Source of the DNA: Owenia fusiformis
Lineage: Eukaryota; Annelida; Polychaeta; Sabellida; Oweniidae
Assembly (NCBI GenBank): GCA_903813345.2
Contig: CAIIXF020000009.1
Location: 13,466,347-13,530,346, forward strand
DNA: 64,000 nt
Direction of reading: 5' to 3'
Shown here piece after piece: positions 17,101 to 64,000 of the stretch. The translations under genes were made by a program, and so were the position numbers. Under the pieces are notes generated by a model. It saw only the letters and a program-made list of their open reading frames with translations. It searched no databases and was not told the origin of the DNA. Each line of letters opens with the position of its first letter. The first letter of the stretch is position 1.

Positions 17101-20100
17101 TATTACTACAGTTTTAGCAACACAACGCCAACATTTAACTTGATTATTATTATCTTTATGACTCAAGCTCTGTTTATTTTATTTGCTGCTATATGATCAG
17201 TAAATTCAGGATTGGGCCAATATTCACACCCAAGTCTCTGACATTTGTATCACTCTGTATATTGGCTGCATATTTCTCCATCTATCTAGTCTCAACCTAC
17301 ATTCTGTAACATAGTACTTTATATAGTGTACTGTACTTACGTTTATTGTTTCTTTTAGCCTGCTAGAAGAAGCTAAAACTAGGTGTGATATTACCATGAC
17401 TACAGAAGATGTTTTCATGAATACTACATTTGGAGAATTCAGCCGTGCAGCTATACTATGCAGTAGAGGCCTTGGAGGCAAGAAGGAATTCACATATGAT
17501 GCGGTATGACAAGCAATATCTACATATAAAACATCAGCATGAACCAGAATACTTAAGTGTTGTCCCAATATGTTCCTTCCTGAAAATATGTAAACTAAAA
17601 GTCATCATTTCCTTTTAAAAACTGATGTACACCAAAATTTTGTCCATAAGTGTTTTTGAATTCCTTTTCCAGATCAAAATGAATGTTAACAACATGGACA
17701 TTACATTCCCGCACCAGCTGTTCATAAACAATGAGTTTGTACCCAGTATTAGTGGAGACACATTTGAAACAATCAACCCAGCTGACGAATCTGTAAGTAC
17801 ATAAGACTCACCTTGTTCAACTTTAAATCTGTCCCTATTATCCTTCTTAGTTCCATGTTAATGTCTGTCAGATATAATTTGAAAGAGAAGTTAAATTACC
17901 AGATGGAATATTCTCATGTTACTTTTACTATTAATAACTGACTCTGCTCTTTGAAAGACCAAATGATATATTGATGGTGTTACTATAGTAACTATTGTGT
18001 TTCTAGGTGATATATAGGCAAGGAAATGCTGGTTATGTTGGTGAAATAAATATTGTGTAACTATGTGATATGTTAATGTTGTTTTAATAATTGGTGTGTT
18101 TCTAGATGATATGTTAATGGAAATGCTTATGATGTTTCTATGGTAATTGCTTTGTTTTCAGGTGATATGTAAAGTGAGCAAGGGGAGTGCTGATGATGTT
18201 GCTATAGTAATTGCTTTGTTTTCAGGTGATATGTAAAGTGAGCAAGGGAAATGCTGATGATGTTGCCAAGGCAGTGAAAGCTGCTATTGCTGGTGAAGAG
18301 GTTTGGAGCAAGATGAACGCAAGAGACAGGGGTGCCATTATGTACAAGTATGTCACATGCTGGATTTTTTCTTTTCCTGCTCATTAGTATGATATTTTGC
18401 TTCTCATCTTTGTCTTCTTTTTCTTTTCAACTAAGAAAGAAACTGGTACCTACACTTTGCCATCCTCCTAGGCAGGTGTCCAGAATCCATACCTCCTTCT
18501 TCCCCCCTGCGATAAGCAGTTAGCATTTCCCTGATTAAGAACTCACAATCTCATTGGCTGTCGCAACACTTCGACAGAAATCATGTATAAGTCATTGCGC
18601 ATAATTATATCACGTGATTCAGTTAAATCAGGCGCTTCCAAATTGGTTATAGCAGGGGGTAAGAAGAAAGAATATATTCTGGATTTTGAAGCCCTGTGAT
18701 CGGAGGATGACACTTTGCAGGTTGATGTTATTTATAGAATTTATTAGCTTCGGCACTAATTCTTACTTTGATATTCATAGGACATGTGATCATGTCAAAA
18801 TAAAAGGAGTATTTTTGTAATCAATGGAAAAATGAAAATGGGGCAAAATTATTTTTCACTTAAAAATCTAATTTATGTAAGTAAAGAATATGTATTTTCA
18901 CATTTCTAGATTGGCAGACCTAATGGATGCTCATCGTGAAGAGTTGGCTACGCTGGAGTCTATTGACAGTGGCGCAGTGTACACATTAGCCCTAAAGACA
19001 CATATAGGCATGTCCATAGACACATTTAGGTACTTTGCTGGATGGTGTGACAAAATCCAGGTAAAGAAATAAAGTACCGTTTTCATAATAGAAAGTATAT
19101 AAGTGGCAGTCATATAAATTTGCGAGGTTTGCAATTTAATAGAAAACGAAACACATAACAGTGCTCTCCCCAGGATTTATTTGTGTGGAGGATTTTGTTA
19201 TTTTTTTAGCGCAACATTCTAGTATTTTTAACTTTTTGTGCAACATTTTATGATTTGGGAATTTTTTTGTGCAACATTTTACAATTTTTGAACTTTTTGT
19301 GCAACATTTTATAATTTCCTTATTTTTTATTGCAACATTAGTGAGGCGCATCTTATTGCATTGAGGAGCATTTTGGTTTTAGAAAATACATGGAGGTGCT
19401 GCGCCTCAGTGATTTCAATGTGGGGAGAGCACTGCATAATGCTTTCATGTAAAAAATACAGTATATATAGAAAGCAAATGCTCGATAAACTTGAATCACA
19501 CGACAATCCTATTAAACACCTTTTCAACATGGAGGATGATTCCCTTTTTTCCAATATTGTATGTCTTGTGAAAATAAAGAAATTGAAATTGTAGCAGAAT
19601 TTATTCATAAATGTAATATAACGAAGAAGGGTGTGATATATGACATAAACAATGGACGCGTATCACAATCACCATTCATGTGCTCATCCATGATACATAT
19701 TTATTTGTTCATTTATTTATTTATTATGAAGTATTTAAAATTGTGTGTGTTGTTATATATGCTGTTTTCTGTTGGATTTTTTTTTTATTTTATTTTTTTT
19801 AATTTTTTTTATTTGCAAATTACACTGTTTTCTGTTGTATTGATATTGTAAAATTAGTGTTTACTTTGTGTACACTTAACCCTTTATGGGTATGCATGTG
19901 TAATAAAGTTCATAAATCTAATCTAAATCTATAAATACATGCAAGCAAATAATGTAAAATGCTAATATAGATGGCATTATCTTTGTTATTTTAGGGCTCA
20001 ACTATTCCAATTAACAATGCAAGGCCCAACAGGAATCTGTCGTACACCAAGAAAGAACCTATTGGGTAATTATTAGAGTAGGCATGTAAATATTATATGC

Positions 20101-23100
20101 TGTCATATTCAACACACAGTATAATGATTATGGATTAACAGGGAATCGTTATAAAGTACATGTACTTGTAAATGTACATGTATTGCAAATAATGATTATT
20201 TATCTAACTTTTCATTATGACTATCTACATTTTAGCTTTCACAACAACAGTGTTAACTGTTTTAACTTTGGTTATGAAGTATTTAGATGACGCATATTTT
20301 GGTCATTTACAGCTATATTATGGGGGATGACAATATGAGAACAGTAAAAATGAAATAGAACTTCATCATGTACATGTATTAAATATTCAAGTCGCAATCA
20401 AGCAATGTAAGAATTTTATTGACTGTTATATCCTTTGTATTTATTTGTTATAACAGGGTATGTGGTATAATCACCCCATGGAACTACCCTCTCATGATGT
20501 TACATCCTTTATATTTCTTTGTTATAACAGTGTATGTGGTATAATCACCCCTTGGAACTACCCTCTCATGATGTTACATCCTTTATATTTCTTTGTTATA
20601 ACAGTGTATGTGGTATAATCACCCCATGGAACTACCCTCTCATGATGTTAGCATGGAAGATGGCTGCCTGTCTTGCTGCAGGGAATACAGTTGTTCTGAA
20701 ACCAGCACAGGTTAGTATTTTCACCTACTGTATTGACTTCTAATGTGGTTTCTCATCATTTATGCTTTCATCTTCATCTTGCTTTCTCATCTTCATTTAC
20801 TCCTTTCTCATCTTCATTTACTCCTTTCTCATCTTCATCTTGCTTTCTCATCTTCATTTACTCCTTTCTCATCTTCATCTTGCTTTCTCATCTTCATTTA
20901 CTCCTTTCTCATCTTCATCTTGCTTTCTCATCTTCATTTACTCCTTTCTCATCTTCATTTACTCCTTTCTCATCTTCATCTTGCTTTCTCATCTTCATTT
21001 ACTCCCTTCTCATCTTCATCTTGCTTTCTCATCTTCATTTACTCCTTTCTCATCTTCATCTTGCTTTCTCATCTTCATTTACTCCTTTCTCATCTTCATT
21101 TATTGCTTTCTCATCTTCATTTACTCCTTTCTCATCTTCATTCATTGCTTTCTCATCTTCATTCATTGCTTTCTCATCTTCATTTCCTGCATTCTCATCT
21201 TCATTTCCTGCATTCTCATCTTCATTTCCTGCATTCTCATCTCATTCTTAACTCCTTTTATATTTGCAGGTGACACCTCTGACATCTCTCAAGTTTGCAG
21301 AGCTAGCAGCAAGAGCTGGTTTCCCTCCAGGGGTCATCAATATCATACCTGGGTCAGGTAAGTAAAATCACTGTCACACCTGGATCAATAAAGTCATGTC
21401 AATATCAATCTGGCATGTTTTAACATTTAAAGGTGCAACAGCTAGAACAGGGGGGCCATTCAACGATCATCGACCAGTGTCAAAATATATTTAAATTTGG
21501 ATATTTCATCAAGACTAACATGTATTTTTATTATCTGCAAAGAAACCCCAGCTGATATTCCTCTTGAAACGCGATGGATCTTAAAAATCTATAAGTGGGA
21601 CTCCCTTTATAGAAGCTTTGAACTGATTACACTTCTTAATGCTGAAATTGATAGTTATCCATATATTTTAAGAAAATAGGTATGTAAAAGAAGATGTTAA
21701 GCCAAATATTGACCTGATAGCTCAGAAAAAATATAAATTTTTGAATTTTCTCCAGTCCTTGTTGCCCCTTTAACTAAGAATATAGTGTTACAGTGTTAGA
21801 AGTATTTGAGTCTGACTCTAGATATGTTTTATGTTTTCTTTTGAAAATATAATCAAGGCAGTGCTTAATTTACTCATTTGATGTGTTCTTCAGGTCGTGT
21901 TGTTGGAACTGCCATAGTGAACCACCCAGCAGTGAGGAAGGTGGGATTTACAGGCTCAACTGAAGTTGGCAAACAGATCATGGAAGGGTGGGTATAAACA
22001 ATTGAAATCAATATCCCCATCTGCAATATATGTAAACATTAAATGATTTTCAATAATATAAACATGATAAAATTTCAAGTTGACTCCCTCCCTTTCCATC
22101 TGAACAAAAGAGATGATGAATTATTTGCAAGTAATAATTTATCAAATATATCAACCCGTTCTTGAATAAGAGAGATTAACCTTTAGTGATGGCTGTGTTT
22201 TTTATTGTTGCTTACAGTGCTGCTAAAAGTAATGCTAAGAAGGTGTCTCTGGAACTAGGGGGCAAGTCACCGCTCATCATCTTCAGTGACTGTGACTTGG
22301 ATAAGGCAGTCAGGATGGTAAGTAAGAAACTACATGTAGTTGATTGGAGAAAATACTAATTAGTGTCAAAGGTGTGAAAACAAAGCAGTTTCAATCATAA
22401 TTATTTCAATATAACTGAAATTTTTATTCATAGTTTTTATTTGACCGTTGTGCTTCCTATAATTGTTAAATATTGCAATCTTATTATATTTTATTTTACA
22501 CTGCAGAGGTGGCATTATAATATAGATGGAAATTATTGTTTTAGGGTTGTGGAGGGGTCTTCTTCAACAAGGGAGAGAACTGTATAGCAGCTGGTAGACT
22601 GTTTGTAGAAGAATCGATACATGATGAATTTGTCAAACGAGTGGTGAGTGATTTTCTTACAATAAACGCTAGTGCCATAGTTGAATAAGGAGATATTTTG
22701 TTACCAAGATTGATTTTAACTTTTGAAATCACATTGCATTTTGTGACACAGACTTGCTTGGTGACTATAGGAGAAATGATGCATATTATGGAGCATGGAG
22801 CTGAGAGTCAGTTTCTTTTCCTTGTGTTTAGGAGGCAGTTCACTCATTTTCTCAAGTGTGTTGATCATTACACCTGTTCCAATGGTTTATGCATTAATGT
22901 TGCTGTATTAAGACTTCAAATATACAGTGCAACAATTAACTTAATACATGTACACAGCTTTTTGTCATAATTATATTTCATGATTCATATAGGATTTGTA
23001 TATTTTCAATGAAGTTAAATCTTCGGAGATGTTTTGAAGCAGTTCATACATGTTACAGTATTAACAATTAAACCTAATGAATTTTTCGTCATCTATTTAC

Positions 23101-26100
23101 AGTGCTTTGGCCATTAATTGTGTGAATGAAAATAGTAGGATTAAAAGAAAAATGTTGTCTAGTTTTTGTTGCGATTAACAGGAAATTAGCCAGTTTGATA
23201 CCCATGTTCTTGTAAAGATTTAAAAGAGCATATCTCCAAAAATATCCACCATTTCATGTACAAAGCTTCTTGAAGTCTTAGATAATTAATAAATTACATT
23301 ATAATGGCAAATATTTACAATATGCCCATTCATCATCTGGCAAATTATTTGCCTTTATTCCATATACATGTATTCTACAATTGTTCACTGCCTTATTGTA
23401 TATTAAAGGGGCAATAAGGACTGTAGAGAAAATAGGAACGTTTTTTTCATTTTTTCTGAGCTATCAAGGCAACATTTGGTTTAAAGTGTCTCACAAATTC
23501 GATCAAAACTTGCCATGCAAACATGTTAGTCTACTTTACTGGCCCCCCTTGCTGTAACAAGGAACCAAAAACACATTAAAACGTAAACATAAACCTGGAA
23601 TTAGTCACTTCACTATGAAAGTGAGGGGTGTTAATATCAGTGGTCATTTACTGTGTCAACTTAGTAACCCTTGCATATCGTGCTCACTCAAGTATTGAAT
23701 ATTTTTTTTATGATCTAAATGTTTGTGGTTTATAAAGAAATGTGATATATTTTAGTTAGAAATACATTCATTAATATATTCATTCAAACAGCACTAGAAT
23801 GCGGGAAGAAAGTGCAATGGTGACAAAATGCAGACAGAATTTTCCGTAAGGGTTTCAAACATTTCTGAACACAATCATACATGTACTTCATGTGAACTGT
23901 TATTTTAGTGCTGTATTTATAGATATAATTTCACGTATTAAAATCATATTTTCCAGCAATGACTTCAAATTCTGAACCACAACCATATCACATTTTCTTC
24001 AATAACTCCAAACATGTGTAAACATTGACCATGTGCATATAAATTCAGATTTCACGAGCTCTTTCCTATTCGAGTACCTCATACACCCCTGCATGGATTT
24101 GAGTTGGATTCGCCTTTTATACGTGAGCCGACACACTCGCAAACGCTGATTGGATAAAGATTGCGAGAAAATTTAAGAAAAACAGCTTCACAGTTGCTTT
24201 TAAAACTTTAACATCTTGTTCAGCTCACTTCATTCTAGATCTGATTAGGTTTTGGACCTGTTAGCTCAGTCGTGTCAGCCATTTTGAATGTTTTAAGAAA
24301 AGTTAGCGCACAATAATACTTTGTATCATATTGAATGGTGTTTTTCAGTTTTCATACTTTAACTATTTAGTAGCTTTATTGAATGGTGTTTTTCAGTTTT
24401 CATACTTTAACTATTTAGTGCTTTGTTGTAAAAGCCTATCTTGTCTTGTCTGTAAAGTCTTGTCTACGCGTTTTCAGGTGAACCGTTTGGTAGATCAATT
24501 TCAAATTTTCAGGGATGATTGTTAATATGAAAATCTAGATCTGATTAGTTTTTGGGCATTCTGGGTAAATGTCAAGGCAGCCATTTTGGATTTTCCATCC
24601 TAAAATCTTGTCTGTAAAGTCTTGTCTACGCATTTTCAGGTGAACTGTTTGTTAGATCAATTTCAAATTTTCAGGAATGATTCTCAGTGTGAAAATCTAG
24701 ATCTGATTAGTTTTTGGGCATTCTGGGTAAATGTCAAGGCAGCCATTTTGGAATTTCCGTCTTAAAATCTTGCCCGTAAAGTCTTGTCTACGCGTTTTTA
24801 GGTGAACCGTTTGGTAGATCATTTTGAAATTTTCAGGGGTGATTCTCAGTATGAAAATCTAGATCTGATTAGTTGTTGGGCATTCTGGGTAAATGTCAAG
24901 GCAGCCATTTTGGATATTCTGTCCTAAAATCTTGTCTGTAAAGTCTTGTCTACACATTTCCAGGTGAACTGTTTGGTAGATCAATTTCAAATTTTCAGGG
25001 ATGATTCTTAGTATGAAAATCTAGATCTGATTAGTTTTTATGCATTCTGGATGAATGTCAAGGCAGCCATTTTGGATTTTCCATCTTAAAATCTTGCCCG
25101 TAAAGTCTTGTCTACGCGTTTTTAGGTGAACCGTTTGGTAGATCAATTTCAAATTTTCAGGAATGATTCTTAGTATGAAAATCTAAATCTGATTAGTTTT
25201 TGGGCATTCTGGGTAAATGTCAAGGCAGCCATTTTGGATTTTCTGTCCTAAAATCTTGTTTGTTAAGTCTTATCTACGCATTTCCAGGTGAACCGTTTGG
25301 TAGATCAATTTCAAATTTTCAGGGATGATTCTTAGTATGAAAATCTAGAACAGATTAGTTTTTTGGCATTCTGGATAAATGTCAAGGCAGCCATTTTGGA
25401 TTTTCTGTCCTCATATCTTGTCTGTAAAGTCTTGTTTACATGTTTTCTGGTTAACTGTGTGACGGATCAATTTCAAATATATTCAGGGGTGGTTCTTAGT
25501 ATGAAAATCTAGAACTGACTAATTTTTTGGCATTCTGGGTAAATTTTAAGGTGGCCATTTTGGATTTTCCGTCCACAAATTGTGTCTGTAAAGTCTTGTC
25601 TACTCATTTTTAGGATAACCATTTGACGGGATCACCCAAAGGTGGGGACATTTTGTACACATATGTGTTCTTGTATTTTTTTAAGATCCACCATGTTTCA
25701 AGAGGAATATCAGCTAAAATAATGTTTATCTAGGGGGTTTCTTTGTAGATAATAAAAATAGATGTTAGTCTTGATGAAATATCCAAACTTAAATATATTT
25801 TGACACTGGTCCATGATCGTTGAATGACCCCTCTGCACTAATTATTGCACCTTTAAGAAATCATAAAACTTACATCCCTAAATATGGTATATTTGTCATA
25901 TGAGTGCTTATCAACTGCACATACATCACCAAGCTGCTCTGGTGATCCTCTGATTCTGAAGTGAAGAGTACATAAAGGAAGTTCTTAGTTAATGTTAGAT
26001 ATATATTAAAAAGTTGTAATATTATGAAACATGCACTAAGGACAGATCAGGTCAAAGCTACCTGCTTTCAAGTATGTGTTGTATCATCGTATAGATGTTG

Positions 26101-55185: not shown

Positions 55186-55353
55186 CTAAAAGTCATTATC
55201 ACTGTCATCTAGAGGTTGCTGAGGTTGCCCACCTCTATTGCGAGCACCTCTCACTGCCCTAGCCATCTCCATCTCATCATCTTCACTGTCGCCACCTATA
55301 TCATCATCATCTATGTCTATGTCTGAGCCACCAGACCCCATATCATCACTGTC
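55186..55353 (-). CDS. CLUAP1: CLUAP1-like last exon
   Basis: Acceptor GTGTTGCAG, then DSDDMGSGGSDIDIDDDDIG ... QQPLDDSDNDF and TAG (55188-55186), 56 codons including stop. Phase 0. The acceptor is the first of 19 tandem copies. Confidence 0.75.
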   Translation of the reverse strand, partial: DSDDMGSGGSDIDIDDDDIGGDSEDDEMEMARAVRGARNRGGQPQQPLDDSDNDF

Positions 55354-58300
55354 CTGCAACACAGAGATTATGCATTACAATAAATCATCATTGTCCTGCA
55401 ACACAGAGATTATGCATTACAATAAATCATCACTGTCCTGAAACAGAGATTATGCATTACAATAAATCATCACTGTCCTGCAACACAGAGATTATGCATT
55501 ACAATAAAAATCATCACTGTCCTGTAACACAGAGATTATGCATTACAATAAATCATCACTGTCCTGTAACACAGAGATTATGCATTACAATAAATCATCA
55601 CTGTCCTGTAACACAGAGATTATGCATTACAATAAATCATCACTGTCCTGCAACACAGAGATTATGCATTACAATAAATCATCACTGTCCTGTAACACAG
55701 AGATTATGCATTACAATAAATCATCACTGTCCTGCAACACAGAGATTATGCATTACAATAAATCATCACTGTCCTGCAACACAGAGATTATGCATTACAA
55801 TAAATCATCACTGTCCAGTAACACAGAGATTATGCATTACATTAAATCATCACTGTCCTGTAACACAGAGATTATGCATTACAGTAAATCATCACTGTCC
55901 TGTGACACAGAGATTATGCATTACAATAAATCATCACTGTCCTGCAACACAGAGATTATGCATTACAATAAATCATCACTGTCCTGTAACACAGAGATTA
56001 TGCATTACAATAAATCATCACTGTCCTGCAACACAGAGATTATGCATTACAATAAATCATCACTGTCCTGCAACACAGAGATTATGCATTACAATAAATC
56101 ATCACTGTCCTGCAACATAGAGATTATGCATTACATACACATCAAAACTAAATAAAACAAATAAGAAACAACAAAATAGATGAAATTCTCAAAGCTGTAG
56201 TTGAAAAACAATATGTCTGTAGAAGGAATACTGTCAATTTCATTTTATATTGTTTAGGTTCTAATGTTTTTAAAAATAAAGTTATTTCAATATTTTCATA
56301 TTGGCACTAATGTTAACTAAAAGCTGTATAGTCCCAATTCACGAAGCCATGCAGAGAAATCAGCAACTAAATTCTGACAATGTTGCACCATCTACATGCA
56401 CTAAAGTAAGTTTTAAATGCAACTTTATGCAACAAATTTAATGCAAAAGGGAGTTCAATGCCTACAAAAACTGCATTTTATCATACTGTCAAATAAAACA
56501 TGTATCATATATATAAGAGAAATAAATTGTGCATGATGAAATGTTTTTTGCCCAAGCCTGTCGTGCAAGCAAATAAAAAGGATTATGAACATGCTTTTTA
56601 GACCAGCCCATTGTTAGTACTATACATATTGATTTCTATGTATGATTTTCCAATCATGTTATACAAGTTGTTTATCAGTTTTTGGATGGCAGTATACAAA
56701 TACAGATATTATGAGGAATCAAAATACATTGTAGTAAACATGAAAAATCTCATTGGTGATAATTTTCCAGTAGAACATGTATTATTGAAGCATAGATATC
56801 CAAAATCCAAAATCAGTTTGCTTTTTAAATCAGGTATCAAATATAAAAGTCATAAACCATAATGATGGTAGTATTTTTAAAACACAGTAGAACAAGGCAC
56901 ACAGTAATGAAAATCAAGATGCCAAATGGGAATCAGGTCTAAGATGTTCATATCTAAAAGCGTTACAAATTTTTATTTTGCCACATGCTGGCTCATTCAG
57001 CAACCCGCATTCCTGCCAATCAGCACAAGATAGTTAGTGAGGTAGCATCGAAAAATGTACCCGCTTCTGAACAAATTGAAATTACTTGTTTCTTATGTAT
57101 TTTTATGCGATACTTCAGAAAATTTTTGTCTGATGCGCCGTATCCGGGGCGAAAGTTGTCAAAATTGGGTTTTTGACCCTAAAAAGGAAAATTACAGGGT
57201 TACAGGGGGTACATTATCATCATTGAATAATTCATTCAGTTGGTCTTCAATCATCATAATAATTTAATCGAGAGTTGATGAGATCATTTTAAGGTAGTAT
57301 GCAAAGTTTCAATGGTCTGTCACTCGTGGTTGCCATGGAAACCACAATTTTTGCTGAGAAAATCTTTAATTTTGGTAAAACCTTTACCTGTACATAATAT
57401 AGAATGTGGATTATTTTTCAAATCAACAGATATCAGAACATTTTAGCATTTTCAAAATTACCAGGGCAGTTCAAACATTTATTTAAATATAAAGGATATT
57501 GCAATTAACATAACTGGGGAGTGTCAAAGATCAGACAATTACATAAGTGATCAAAAGTGGGCGTCGCCCTTATCATAGTAGATGATTGCCATTCTCTAAA
57601 AATACTTGACTTTTGAGATACATTTATAATGATGTTCTTTGGTTATACTAAATATTAAGCATTTTTGGTAAAATAATGTATATGTAAGTATTATACTTAT
57701 TGCATTGGGGAGGGGGTAGATGGGGAGGGGGGGGGGTAACAGAATTGGAAGAGGGCAAAGCTAATCACCCTTAAGTATAAATCTCATCTACATAGTTCTG
57801 GATTTCATGGGGTACATCTTCTGGGTCTTCTTCACATTCATCTGAATATATAGGATATTATAATTCTGCATGATTGGTAAGTATAAAGACCATAGAATTA
57901 CTCAAGTGATCAAAAGTGGGCGTCGCCCTTATCATAGATTCATTCTCTATAAATACAGAGTCTAAGTTGACTTTTGAGATACATTTACATTACAACTTCT
58001 TTTATTATACTTAATTACAAGCATTTCTGGTTAGTAATGCACATCTAATTGTAATAGTTCTTGCCTGGGGGAGGATGGGGGGGAGTAGTAACAGAATAGG
58101 GAGGGGGCAGAGGTAATCAGCCTTCAGTATAAATCTCATCTGCATAGTTCTGGATTTCACGGGGCACATTGTGTGGGTCTTCTTCATATTCATCTCAATA
58201 TATGGGATATTACAATTTACAGGATTTGTCAAACACCATACAATTACATATTTATAAATGATCAAAAGGAGTGTCACCCTAACAATAGTAGATGGTTGGT

Positions 58301-61300
58301 TCTTTGTATAAATACAAAATTGAACTTGACTTTTGAGATACACATGGATACATTCATAGTTATACTGAACTGCTGTTATTATAATTTATGTCAAGCATTT
58401 CTGGTAAATACATCTGTGTAAGTATTATAGTTTTTACATTTGGGCAGGGGTGAGTAGTAACAGAATTAGAATGAGTAGATCTAATCTGCCTTAAGTATAA
58501 ATCTCATCTTTTTAATTCTGGATTTCATAGGGTACATCTTCTGGAGTTTTCTGATTCATCTCCTGGTGTTGCTATATCACCAATCTCTTGTATGAGAATA
58601 TCAGTCAATACCCACTGGAAAGATATGGAGTCATTTAGTTTCCATTCAAGTCCACCTGGTGGTTCACTACGAGGATTTGCAATATGGGCCATACAGACAA
58701 TAAGTGCTTTATATGGATGAGATGGTTACAACGATCAGACAGTCCTTCATAAGACCAACTTAGGAAAATTATCTAGAGATGAGATGAGTGTGACACCCAT
58801 AATGACCTTGGAAAGGCACAAATAGCAAGTATAGAAAAAGACATAAAGATGACAAAAACCGCAATCAAAGACTTCCTTGATCCATTTACCATTGAGGATG
58901 AAGGTCATCTCTACGATGTATCTAAAGGAAAATCTGTGCCAAATGATGTCGCTGCAGATCTCATCTAATTTTAGTCAAAAGGGGAAATTGCATGAAGAGA
59001 TACCATCTGAGATTAGTTGAAAAAAAGATTTCATGATCTAATAAAACATATGAAATTGAAAACTATAGCAGCAAACTACAGCAGCAACAGTGACAGTAAA
59101 AAAGTATTCAGAACAAGCTTATACAAATACATTCTGAATGAAACATCTTTGAACAGCTTCGATCTTGCTTTAGAACATAAAATTAGCCTAGAATGTCTCC
59201 TGCAGTTCCTATTGAGCCCTGTGCCTTGGGCTCTAGGAACACTGACAAGACTTCTTGCAAGAACAGAGAAACGCATCCCTATGCATGAAAATGTACCCAC
59301 AAGTGCCAAAGGGAAAGGACCAAAATTTGTAATAGAACCCAGCAAGAAAAAGAAAACTTCTAAATGTATACAAGTCATAAGGAAAACAAACCCCAACTAT
59401 CCCAAACCATAATTCAACTTGAAAGGTAGTTTTGTTTCTGGATCTGGCGGAGACTGTTTCAAGATTCTACAATTGCAGATTGATTAGTTTTTGTATGTGA
59501 TAATTACATCAAAAATTCTATAAAGGAACCTGAAAGAGGGGAGGGACACCTTGCCCTATTTAAGGTAGAAAAACATGAGTTCCTAAAGATTGGAATTAGT
59601 TCTTGTATGATGATGAAAACAAAAAACCAAATACAGCAAAGTGTGCTGCTGGATACTTGAGTTGGAAACAAATGAAGACTGATGTCAGTGGTATTTCCTC
59701 CAATATAGACCCTGACATATATGCAGCCTTCCTAGCACTTCACACATTCACAGATGAAGTGCCATGCAGAAGGGGCAATAGCACCTTTTTAAAAGGCAAA
59801 GGTGGAGCGCCATATAGATACACTCAACTGAATGACTCTCAAATCTGCAAGTGTAGTGGTATAGTCTCTCACATGATATTGTTAATATATTAACATCGGG
59901 AGGTGAATGAAAATGATCAGACTATGATATTAATACTTAAGACTGACTGGCCATTGGCTCTGCCCCCTCCCATTTCTGCTACTACCCCCCTTGCCCCCCC
60001 CCCCACAGGGAATAACTATTACAATACTAAATGTAATCAAAGAAGTTTTAATTTAAAAAATAAATCTTAAAGTCAAGTTAAACTCCATATTCATAGAGAA
60101 TGAATTATCTACTATTGTTAGAGCAACACCCACTTTTGATCACTTATGTAATTGTATGGTCTTTGACACTTACCAATCATGTAAATTGGAATATCCCATA
60201 TATTGAGATGAATGCGAAGAAGACCCAGAAGATGCACCCCTTGAAATCCAGAACTAAATAAATGAGATTTACATTTAAGGCTTATTAGCTCTGCCCATTT
60301 CCAATTCTGTGATTCTTAGAGTGCTAAAATGTTCTGATATCTGTTGATTTGAAAAATAATTCACATTCTTTATTATGTACATGTACAGGTTTTACCAAAA
60401 TTTAGGATTTTCTCAGCAAACATTGTGGTTTCCATGGCAACCACGAGTGACAGACCATTGAAAGTTTGCATACTACCTTAAAATGATCTCATCAACTCTC
60501 AATAAAATCATTATGATGATTGAAGACTAACTGAATGAATTATTCAATGATGTTAATGTACCCCCTGTAATTTTCCTTTTTAGGGTCAAAAACCCAATTT
60601 TGACAACTTTCGCCCCGGATATGGCGCGTTAGACAAAAATTTTCTGAAGTATCACATAAAAATACATAAGAAACAAGTAATTTCAATTTGTTCAGAAGCG
60701 GGTACATTTTTCGGTGCTACCTCACTACCTAAGATTATTACAGCAGCACTTTTCAAGTGCAACAAATAGTAGTATAGATTGGCTTTAAAATCCACACCCT
60801 ATAAGTAATTCACCCATGCAATAGTTTAGCCATGCTTTTTAAGGATCATATATGATGGAAGCTGGAATCATTGTACTGTGAATTCAGTCTCCATGGAGAT
60901 GTTTGCACACTGAACTCTAGGCCTTCATCATTGTTACAATATGATCCTTAAATACAATCAAATCATCCATCATGCCCATATATTGAAATAAACCTTTTTA
61001 TGTGAGCGCCTTGACATTTTAGGTGTTGTTTTATCATAAAGGCGGGGCCTAGTGGTTGGTCTTCTCGGCGAATGTGGAGGAAAATGACTTGGGGACAGAA
61101 TCTCTATCCGTGGCTACAATAGGTCAATATAGGAGATAAATGGAGAGACATCTATAAATGGGGAGCCATTTGTAAAATAATGTGAAGCATATTTTACAAT
61201 GATTAAGCAGCATAGTTATGAAGAGCTCATAGTTGTGAGAGACAGAAACCCAGATGTATGGGTAATGTAGGTTACACATCTTTCAAAGGATAAGTGGCAT

Positions 61301-64000
61301 GTTACACCAGAATGGTGCGTTGTCAGACAACTAATTTATGGGAAAAGTCCTAGATCGCATGATAAAAGTCTGGAGAAATTAAATTTATCTATGAATGAAA
61401 CTCATATTCTAAAAGTGATAACGTGAGAGTGTCTTGTGGGTATTTCCCTTGATGGTTATAGTAACTAGAGGTGTCAAGTATTAACCGGTTAACCGGTTAA
61501 CCGCCGATAATGCCTTGACCGGTCTGTGTTTTTATGGGCGGTTAGTTGACCGTGTATAATTCTATTATTTCCCGCGCTTATTTTGCATGCTAATCCGTTT
61601 GGTTTTATGGTGTCAGTTTCACGTAAGCTACTCATACATGTAATAAGTCCCATAACTCCTTACAAACATCCAATCAGCAACTTTAATCCCTGCCACATTG
61701 CTTCCCGCTCTTACTTTGCATTTTAATCTGTTTGTTTTTCAATCAGTTTCATGTGAGCTACTCAAACATGTGATAGGTCCGATAATTCCTTACAAACATC
61801 CAATCAGCAACTTTAATCCCTGCCACATTGCTTTCCCGCGCTTACTTACATAGAATAGAGTAAAGCTTGACGAACGTAAAAAATAAACGCCGATATATCA
61901 TTTTTCCAATTTTTTCAACTTTCAAGATCGAAGATGAAGATTTCATTTGAAATTATCAGTTCAAATTTCCCGCCGGTTAACCGACTTTAACCGGTAAAAA
62001 CCCCCGGTTAACCGGTTAATGCTCGAGCGTTTAATTGACACCACTAATAGTAACCCTTGTCTGATACTAATGCACAATATTTGGTCCAAACTGGAACAAA
62101 CAGCAATTAACCCAAGAATAGCAAATCCTAAATCTTTACTCATTTCATGCTAGATATGACAATTGTCCATTACTCATCCATTCTGTCAAAAGTTACACCA
62201 GTGAGGCTAAAGCAAAACTATTCAAATAAAAATAAACTCCCCAAATTGATAAGTTATAGCTCACAAATGCCAAATTACATGGATGAAAAAGCCACTACTT
62301 TGAAACACAGCACCATTTTGAAAATTAAATCCAAGCAAATACATGACAGGCTGTACAGACAGAGATGATTGATGCAGCTTTAACAGCTTAAAACTGTTCA
62401 AGGGCACAGAAGTCTTAACCAAAGCAAGATAAGTTATGTGATGATAGAAAACAAAATCTACAAAATATTACGATGCCAGAAAATTAATTATAGAATAAAA
62501 AATCTGAATTGTTTTCTCATAAAAATCTTTTGTAATAAATGTAAGGAACAAGCTATAGCCCTAATAAGTTATGTTTGCTTGGAAAAAGTTATGAAAATTT
62601 CTTTACTTCATCATCTTCATCATCATCCTCGTCGTCGTCATCGCCCATTCCCATAGATCCAAACACCTGAGGTTTCCCGCCCATGTTGTTATCTCTCTGA
62701 CCAGAGGCGCCTACAAAACAAATCATAGTGGAGAGACAATAAAATACAGAGTGCATGAAGTACATTATAAGATGATAGAAATGCTAAGTAATGAATAATG
62801 GAAAATTGAGAACAAAACTTATCCAGCATAATATAACAATCAAACAACTGAAGTACCATAAAACTGTAATACATGTACATCTAAACAAAACCATACAACA
62901 TGGTTCTCTGAATCTTTTTAAAGAAAGGATTAGGTTGCTTTGGTGGAATAGTTGATTTCATTTAAAATCTTTACTAATTTGAAGTGATCCATTGAAGGGT
63001 TTTACTGGAATTACATGGAAAATAGAAAAAACTAGATTGGAGAAATTGAACAAGTTCAATTCAAGACTCCAGATTTAGATTGTTTATCTCAAAACCATTT
63101 TGAGATCTGATATTAATGAAAGGGTTGAGATTGTTACAATTTGGTGGCAGCGGTGGGATTTTTTTTGAGATTTCAAAAGCCCATAACTTCTAAACCGGAA
63201 GTCGGATCTCAATTTTGTTTTCAGATTCGAAATCTTGAGGAAATTTCCTATATAATTAATACCAATTCTGATAGATTTGGAACATTTTAAAATTCAACAT
63301 TTTTTTAAAGTCATATTTCTCAAAACTGATCATTTTTTATCAAGACATATATTTGGCAACATGTTTGAAACACTTAGAGAAACCTAGAAAAATATTTATA
63401 GCAAGAAATATTGAAAGATAAAAAAGAAAATTGAAAATTTGTGAAATTAAAAAAATTGACCTAGAATTTGAACTTTGACCTAGATAAAAATTTGACCTAA
63501 TTTCCCAGAAACTAGGTCACATACCCTAACGAACTATGTAATTAAATTTACCCTAAGTCTTCTAGTTATTGAGATATCTTGCTAAGAAAAATAATAATAA
63601 TAATAATAATAATAATAAGAATACAGGCAAAAACAATAGACTCCAGATTTTCAATCTGGAGTCTAATAATCAAAAATGAATCAATGAGATGAGCTTACTG
63701 TCCTTGAATCGCAATGACATGAAATATAAGAAAATGAAATGGTCCTTTATTGCACTTCAAATCATTCAATAACGTTTTTATCGTGTGATCCTGTGTATAG
63801 CTACTGAGAATGTCCCCTCTGTACCAATATTTTCTGTATTGCAACTGAGATGATCAACGGGGACAACTTCAGTTGCAATACAGATTGGTACAGCACAAGA
63901 ACTGACCAATCAGAGGGCTTCATTTTACAGATCATACGATAAAAATACATACCTGCTTGTCTCTCTCTGTTGTGTGAGGGACGTGGACGTCTTTGTTCAA
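55186..64000 (-). CDS. CLUAP1: Acidic C-terminal part of a probable CLUAP1/IFT38 gene (5' part outside window)
   Basis: Three exons join in frame: 64000-63953, 62710-62607 and 55353-55186. They give a tail starting EQRRPRPSHNRERQAG, then GGKPQVFGSMGMG, long Asp/Glu runs, and the end PQQPLDDSDNDF before TAG. From memory of the family, CLUAP1 (clusterin-associated protein 1, IFT38, an IFT-B component needed for ciliogenesis) has an acidic C-terminus that finishes in a very similar Ser-Asp-Asn-Asp-Phe. That is the basis for the name. The calponin-homology-like and coiled-coil parts would lie beyond the right edge. The last intron is 7.25 kb and full of repeats. Other acidic-tailed proteins cannot be excluded. 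Confidence 0.55.
55349..56136 (-). repeat. 42-bp minisatellite, 19 copies, each carrying a 3' splice-site copy
   Basis: Seen: on the minus strand each unit reads CATAATCTCTGTGTTGCAGG followed by ACAGTGATGATTTATTGTAATG. The functional acceptor TTGCAG|GACAGTGATGAT of the last exon is the terminal copy. In about 18 of 19 copies the AG survives (TTGCAG, TTACAG, TCACAG or TTTCAG). One copy near 55812 has lost it. Unit length is 14 codons, but each unit has an in-frame TAA after DSDDLL. Confidence 0.95.
57031..60731. mobile_element. 3.7-kb foldback-like element with long inverted arms
   Basis: Seen: 57031-57455 and 60320-60731 are inverted copies (TAGTTAGTGAGGTAGCA on the left; TGCTACCTCACTACCTA on the right). 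Inside, units of about 355 bp containing GATCAAAAGTGGGCGTCGCC start near 57550, 57908 and 58260, with a reverse-complement relative near 60115. G-rich runs occur at 57712-57737 and 58067-58105, and a C run near 59996. The interior holds broken protein-coding remnants. It lies in the last intron of the CLUAP1-like gene. Confidence 0.7.
58790..59880 (+). pseudogene. Broken coding remnant inside the 3.7-kb element
   Basis: Seen: plus-strand pieces DIKMTKTAIKDFLDPFTIED (about 58840-58900), FHDLIKHMKLKTIAANYSSN to KTNPNYPKP (59017-59412) and KPNTAKCAAGYLSWKQMKTD (59603-59893), separated by stops and frameshifts. They look like parts of one mobile-element-encoded protein of unknown function. No catalytic motif is recognised. 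Confidence 0.45.
61466..62046. mobile_element. 581-bp hAT-type MITE with an 8-bp target-site duplication
   Basis: Seen: ends TAGAGGTGTCAA and TTGACACCACTA are 12-bp inverted repeats with one mismatch. Both sides are flanked by ATAGTAAC (61458-61465 and 62047-62054), an exact 8-bp duplication as hAT elements make. Subterminal AACCGGTTAACCGG palindromes lie near both ends. An internal unit of about 130 bp (AAACATCCAATCAGCAACTT) occurs twice. Confidence 0.85.
62607..62710 (-). CDS. CLUAP1: CLUAP1-like penultimate exon
   Basis: Acceptor TTTTGTAG, donor GTAAAG. Encodes ASGQRDNNMGGKPQVFGSMG followed by an Asp/Glu run. Phase 1 in, phase 0 out. Confidence 0.7.
63064..63664. repeat. Dispersed repeat with GACTCCAGATT ends and an (AAT)n tract
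   Basis: Seen: GACTCCAGATTTAGA at 63064 and AATCTGGAGTC near 63652-63663 are inverted. An ATA microsatellite occupies 63588-63616. No ORF. Confidence 0.5.
63953..64000 (-). CDS. CLUAP1: CLUAP1-like exon, cut by the window edge
   Basis: Reads EQRRPRPSHNRERQA with donor GTATGT, phase 1 out. The 5' end continues beyond 64000. Confidence 0.6.

Follow-up and report, generated by a model that had tools for sequence, protein, structure and literature searches.

The acceptor of the last exon of a CLUAP1 (IFT38) gene lies within a minisatellite whose 42-bp unit spans the intron/exon boundary. Potential acceptors matching the true one recur along the array, the surrounding gene model is intact, and similar arrays lie at exon ends of other genes in the same genome. 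Repeats that span an exon boundary are a known kind, present in other genes of this animal too, and the CLUAP1 array is a large member of it. We consider it likely that this array is a neutral minisatellite of the kind called a 'mirage' and that functional mRNA arises when the last copy serves as acceptor.

The CLUAP1 gene and its 42-bp array

Twelve CLUAP1 exons (from the second exon onward) join without a stop in one frame of 469 residues, and GT and AG are present at all 11 introns of this model. Some of these lie in the window (i.e., the whole stretch of 64,000 nucleotides analysed, C9:13466347-13530346 of the assembly); further exons with the Cluap1 domain adjoin it, outside, on the same strand. 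The joined protein matches Pfam Cluap1 over the whole domain length (5.5e-118, profile 1-267 of 268) and chain L of PDB 8bd7, clusterin-associated protein 1 (2.1e-83). One CLUAP1 locus was found in the assembly. Its 3′ end, in window positions, comprises:

62607..62710, minus strand: exon E12 of the gene model, with donor GAA/gtaaag, phase 0
55354..62606, minus strand: last intron, 7,253 bp, longer than any of the other 10 in this model
55186..55353, minus strand: true terminal exon E13, with the copy 19 acceptor and a 55-aa acidic tail ending DDSDNDF

The initial annotation had placed the boundary at the same site, and the model agrees: E12 ends at 62607, E13 starts at 55353, the junction is phase 0 on both sides and the joined frame is open. 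The 50-odd residue acidic tail ending in DNDF that it described is also present, as DSDDMG...DDSDNDF (55 residues counted from DSDD, 19 of them acidic). Only the final four residues, DNDF, were compared with the CLUAP1 chain of PDB 8bd7, which we take to be algal, and they are common to both; a search of PDB with the tail alone gave no match. The open 55-codon tail and the shared DNDF suggest that at least some transcripts are spliced at copy 19. In excerpts of a report on IFT-train structure, the CH domain and coiled coil of IFT38 are placed and the tail is unmentioned (PMC10191852).

Tandem Repeats Finder (TRF) reported the array at 55342-56135 with period 42, 18.9 copies, 96% matches and a score of 1458, against 13 arrays with a top score of 68 across 200 first-order Markov control sequences (4 kb each). 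Reading out all 19 units established the head-to-tail 42-bp array that had been claimed. Its features are:

55342..56135, minus strand: 42-bp tandem array of 19 head-to-tail units (TRF and unit-by-unit read-out)
55379..56134, minus strand: 18 upstream (decoy) acceptor copies, 17 with AG (read-out, matrix scoring and translation)
55816..55817, minus strand: copy 8, AG lost, reading CTG; first exon base 55815 (unit read-out)
55421..55460, minus strand: copy 17, 40 bp, TTTCAG, the most exposed decoy in local RNA folding

On the minus strand the unit reads GTAATGCATAATCTCTGTGTTGCAG up to the intron/exon boundary and GACAGTGATGATTTATT beyond it (i.e., ~25 nt of intron end, 12 nt of exon start and a TTATT filler). 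The upstream units measure 42 bp in 16 of 18 cases, copy 15 being 44 bp and copy 17 40 bp, and the acceptors are spaced 40-44 nt apart (typically ~42 nt) over 756 nt. The most frequent unit variant, G/A at -4 (eight of 17 units compared), is dispersed through the array, a pattern that block turnover would produce. A search of the 498-Mb assembly found this unit at one place only. Within the CLUAP1 gene, the last 14 intron bases at the E8 acceptor (67894 as a window-like coordinate), TCTCTGTGTTGCAG, are the same as in the array unit and the flanks differ, an identity due either to chance or to gene conversion.

Two long plus-strand open reading frames that overlie the repeat (of 205 and 222 aa) were taken as by-products, the 42-bp unit having no stop in those frames. 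A single-copy acceptor, TTTATTTAG, lies 5′ of the array with its first exon base at 56147; it is pyrimidine-rich by eye, yet it falls at the 5th percentile of the acceptor matrix. A search for similar DNA among plasmids, uninformative for an animal locus, found none.

Strength and coding outcome of the decoy acceptors

We scored the copies with a matrix built from 95 acceptors of the same genome. The true site (copy 19) scores 9.23, the 43rd percentile of this set, which is biased to high scores because 78 of the 95 were picked by best score near a profile match. Nearly all copies had been expected to keep a pyrimidine stretch and AG; the AG is present in 18 of 19 units, and the pyrimidine stretch is weak. 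Copies 2, 3, 5, 9, 10, 12, 16 and 18 equal the true acceptor base for base from -30 to -1 and share its score; copy 1 scores 8.87 and copy 17 scores 8.93, and 10 of the 18 decoys differ from the true site by less than 0.4 bit. Six TTACAG copies are weaker (7.52, 22nd percentile), yet within the range of real sites, while copy 6 scores under all 95 acceptors and copy 8 has no AG. Because eight decoys are identical to the true site, local sequence cannot decide between the true site and the best decoys, and the features examined here hold no explanation of why these eight would be ignored.

Translation revealed a stop 6-9 residues after the acceptor in every AG-bearing decoy. Splicing to any distal copy had been predicted to add DSDDLL and then stop; truncation is indeed found throughout, but the exact peptide in only 14 of the 17 AG-bearing decoys, the exceptions being copy 7 (DSDDLM), copy 15 (DSDDFYCNA) and copy 18 (DNDDLL). 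The tail is encoded by copy 19 only, and the presumed authentic boundary lies in this outermost copy. Read-out and translation thus bear out the proposed anatomy of many potential acceptors, one of them productive and every other truncating. A predicted DSDDLL product would lose the 51 residues after DSDD and be 49 residues shorter overall. Exon-junction-dependent decay should not apply to a stop in the last exon; decoy products, whose stop sits in the terminal exon, would therefore probably escape nonsense-mediated decay.

Boundary-spanning arrays in other genes

The ALDH1L1-like gene that neighbours CLUAP1 has acceptor arrays at two of the 13 exons placed by tblastn, a count confined to exons from 18.2 kb onward:

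18119..18266, plus strand: acceptor array, 64 bp x 2.3, with older degenerate copies upstream (by eye)
20424..20650, plus strand: acceptor array, 74 bp x 3.1

Two other repeats were seen in the window. A pyrimidine-rich minisatellite at 20756-21246 (21-, 40- and 141-bp periods) lies directly 5′ of the ALDH1L1-like acceptor at ~21270, and a 162-bp unit repeated 7.3 times at 24444-25625, with TTTTCAGGTGAAC in several copies, lies away from every exon placed.

We also surveyed the best 30 loci each for Cpn60_TCP1 and Myosin_head (70,115 and 85,645 unique bases). Local duplications were scanned for at 92 exon matches (45 of 60 TCP1 and 47 of 92 myosin); 15 TCP1 and 45 myosin matches, outside or at the edge of the DNA covered, were left out. 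With boundaries taken as profile-match ends ±25 bp in two gene families of one genome, the acceptor side lies in a tandem duplication at five of the 92 matches and the donor side at four, i.e., at nine of 184 exon ends, each of them read out:

CCT-theta-like gene (named by eye): acceptor array, 83 bp x 9
G000:C11:134865-135460, minus strand: TCP1-family acceptor array (C11:135017), 96 bp x 4
C8:21853988: acceptor array, 86 bp x 2
C10:13378984: acceptor array, 30 bp x 2
C1:57373909: myosin acceptor array, 61-bp unit
C1:58969963: donor array, 154 bp x 2
G000:C11:141560-142160, minus strand: TCP1-family donor array (C11:142062), 28 bp x 16.6
C10:13377174: donor array, 48 bp, degenerate, flagged over only 20 of 50 bp
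C4:17297275: donor array, 34 bp x 4

Flagged and uncounted were C10:4787212 (a 32-bp dispersed copy on the donor side) and the acceptor side of C4:17297275 (an intronic 21-bp repeat). The C11:142062 donor array follows the end of a TCP1-family exon and its GT, and several copies carry GTGAGT. In the CCT-theta-like chaperonin gene, eight decoys are identical at the acceptor and each truncates. GC content in the TCP1 survey loci is 34%. At one myosin heavy chain locus (G000:C9:37986009-37994334, minus strand), 12 separate matches to roughly the same Myosin_head segment (~18-84) suggest that one exon is present there as about 12 clustered alternative copies. A homeodomain locus of the assembly reads KWKKDNNIEKLTGP, with the homeodomain followed by KLTGP, which we take to be the lophotrochozoan Lox5 signature. 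The genome is therefore probably not that of an amphioxus, and the annelid Owenia fusiformis fits well as the source, without this being proof of the species; a species search with mitochondrial COX1 gave no match.

Outside exons, 9.8% of bases (13,515 of 138,339) lie in duplications, against 1.3% of exon interiors (108 of 8,639). Exon ends fall between the two, with five of 88 acceptor and four of 88 donor positions duplicated (the 92 matches minus C11:135225, where the profile match runs into an array, and three matches in genes taken as single-exon). The rate at boundaries is thus about half that outside exons, in small numbers from one genome, and we read this intermediate rate as duplication that is blind to splice sites together with selection on coding interiors.

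Decoy use in the seven other acceptor arrays, whose exons were taken as internal, is predicted to give a stop in five (both ALDH1L1-like arrays and those of C8, myosin and the CCT-theta-like gene) and an in-frame insertion in two (32 residues per copy at C11:135017 and 10 at C10). CLUAP1 is the terminal-exon case, and its 19 copies are the most among the acceptor arrays observed; this copy number could mean that the locus is special. The case for a special regulatory locus is weakened by the acceptor and donor arrays in other genes, CCT-theta-like included, and by the amphioxus precedent, which suggests regular splicing. Since the CLUAP1 array is not unique, the earlier interpretation is only partly supported.

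Origin of the array and use of its copies

In amphioxus, minisatellite-like repeats across an intron-exon boundary are named mirages (excerpts of PMC3087553 and PMC3902484). The end of an intron and the start of an exon are duplicated in the globin gene BflGb6, with six and three units in two haplotypes; mirages described earlier in Adh3 show somatic instability (as cited in PMC3087553), and others occur in PGBD5 and troponin C (PMC3902484). As in Adh3, BflGb6, BflGb9, troponin C and PGBD5, the CLUAP1 unit spans the boundary and many copies keep the AG. Amphioxus units run from 10-72 bp (Adh3) to 150-160 bp (globins), and 42 bp lies in this range. Acceptor and donor sides are affected both there and in the present genome (PMC3087553, PMC3902484). 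The CLUAP1 array thus has the anatomy of a mirage, i.e., a boundary-spanning unit within 10-160 bp, AG retained in many copies and the authentic boundary in the outermost copy. Unlike the amphioxus cases as excerpted, it lies in a lophotrochozoan-looking genome, at a terminal coding exon, and has 19 copies against six and three in BflGb6, and arrays of its type sit at nine of 184 exon ends surveyed in its genome; occurrence in a cephalochordate bears on the scope of the name and not on the mechanism. By analogy with the BflGb6 haplotypes, it is plausible that array length differs between individuals. In the open-access literature searched, the name was not found beyond amphioxus, boundary repeats there were also found in human paralogues, and absence elsewhere is unproven; the excerpts of earthworm metallothionein and zebra mussel papers do not describe boundary-spanning repeats.

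Three other systems are similar in part. Genes in human segmental duplications carry internal tandem repeats with units of ~30 bp, some at exon-intron boundaries and able to alter splicing (PMC2812944). These share with CLUAP1 a minisatellite at the boundary, but belong to recent primate families whose paralogues differ in copy number, whereas here the repeat is in a one-locus ciliary gene. NAGNAG and other close tandem acceptors (PMC1449888, PMC3250501) are likewise competing 3′ splice sites, but NAGNAG sites are 3 nt apart and make small changes, in contrast to the ~42-nt spacing, 756-nt span and truncation seen here. In intron gain by tandem genomic duplication (PMC4974935, PMC2891723) splice signals are copied, as in the CLUAP1 array; unlike that process, the CLUAP1 piece already carried an acceptor, and a new intron is neither needed nor seen.

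We infer that the array grew by serial tandem duplication of a segment that takes in the final bases of the last CLUAP1 intron and the first bases of E13. Local tandem duplications are frequent in the sampled parts of this genome, and those spanning a splice site would be tolerated because the outermost copy retains an intact boundary. Coding conservation suggests that functional CLUAP1 mRNA joins E12 to copy 19, an acceptor probably favoured because it lies closest to the signals for terminal-exon definition. The decoys would then be cryptic sites with rare or low-level use.

The array might instead be regulatory, with decoys often used, tail-less CLUAP1 escaping decay and accumulating, and array length setting the balance between tail-less and full-length protein and thereby IFT-B-BBSome coupling. 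We regard this as unlikely. The AG is kept in 17 of 18 decoys, many of them nearly as strong as the true site, transcription reaches the upstream copies first, and all 18 decoys would truncate; truncation is, however, also predicted at most of the internal-exon arrays of other genes, with in-frame insertion at the rest, and RT-PCR in amphioxus suggested splicing undisturbed by mirages (excerpt of PMC3087553). Human cells offer a parallel, since IFT38 lacking residues 329-413 (i.e., 1-328) rescues ciliogenesis, does not bind BBS1, BBS2 or BBS9, and leaves GPR161 export impaired (excerpt of PMC6777367). The parallel is only suggestive because the human deletion removes 85 residues and CLUAP1 decoys would remove 51. 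The array is still of interest, because decoy products are likely decay-proof and truncated human IFT38 is ciliogenic but BBSome-unbound.

Alternatively, the array may bury its own decoys. The unit is nearly palindromic, so adjacent units could pair acceptor to acceptor, hiding most decoys in helices and leaving copy 19 freer for the spliceosome to reach. Local RNA folding, run at two window settings, gave AG unpaired probabilities of 0.01-0.15 for nine TTGCAG decoys against 0.21 and 0.50 for copy 19; an intron reduced in silico to a single copy gave 0.51 and 0.60. Two pieces of the array had folding z-scores of -2.45 and -2.59, compared with -1.37 at the last copy and -0.76 upstream, though shuffling inflates z-scores of repeats. 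Against this reading, copy 17 (0.71 and 0.81) exceeds the true site in exposure, and six TTACAG decoys range from 0.11 to 0.32. The last copy is not clearly more accessible in six of the seven other acceptor arrays, and in the ALDH1L1-like array at 20 kb it is only modestly so (0.19 vs 0.15 and 0.00; 0.06 vs 0.03 and 0.01). We therefore discarded burying as a general rule and retain it for CLUAP1 only, where it is improbable as the full account; acceptor-acceptor pairing that buries TTGCAG decoys is a possible aid specific to this gene.

It is highly improbable that splicing stops at the first acceptor, making the tail-less form the norm and the terminal exon a decaying relic, for although copy 1 is the first acceptor and its score (8.87) is near that of copy 19 (9.23), an open acidic 55-codon tail (19 of 55) sharing DNDF with the PDB 8bd7 chain is unexpected in a relic.

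The CLUAP1 array sets identical 3′ splice sites in series within a single natural transcript and makes it possible to ask how the spliceosome chooses one acceptor when local sequence cannot decide. In the boldest reading, to which we give little credence, boundary repeats are pervasive in this lophotrochozoan genome (~1 in 20 splice sites) and exon-proximal choice among acceptors identical over 30 nt is routine, while leakage at the CLUAP1 terminal exon would yield a decay-proof, BBSome-uncoupled protein whose dose is set by a minisatellite of variable length. If boundary repeats are as common as our small survey suggests, annotation and variant interpretation in genomes of this sort must allow for them, and they would be raw material for intron gain. 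In CLUAP1, the array may link repeat length to ciliary transport.
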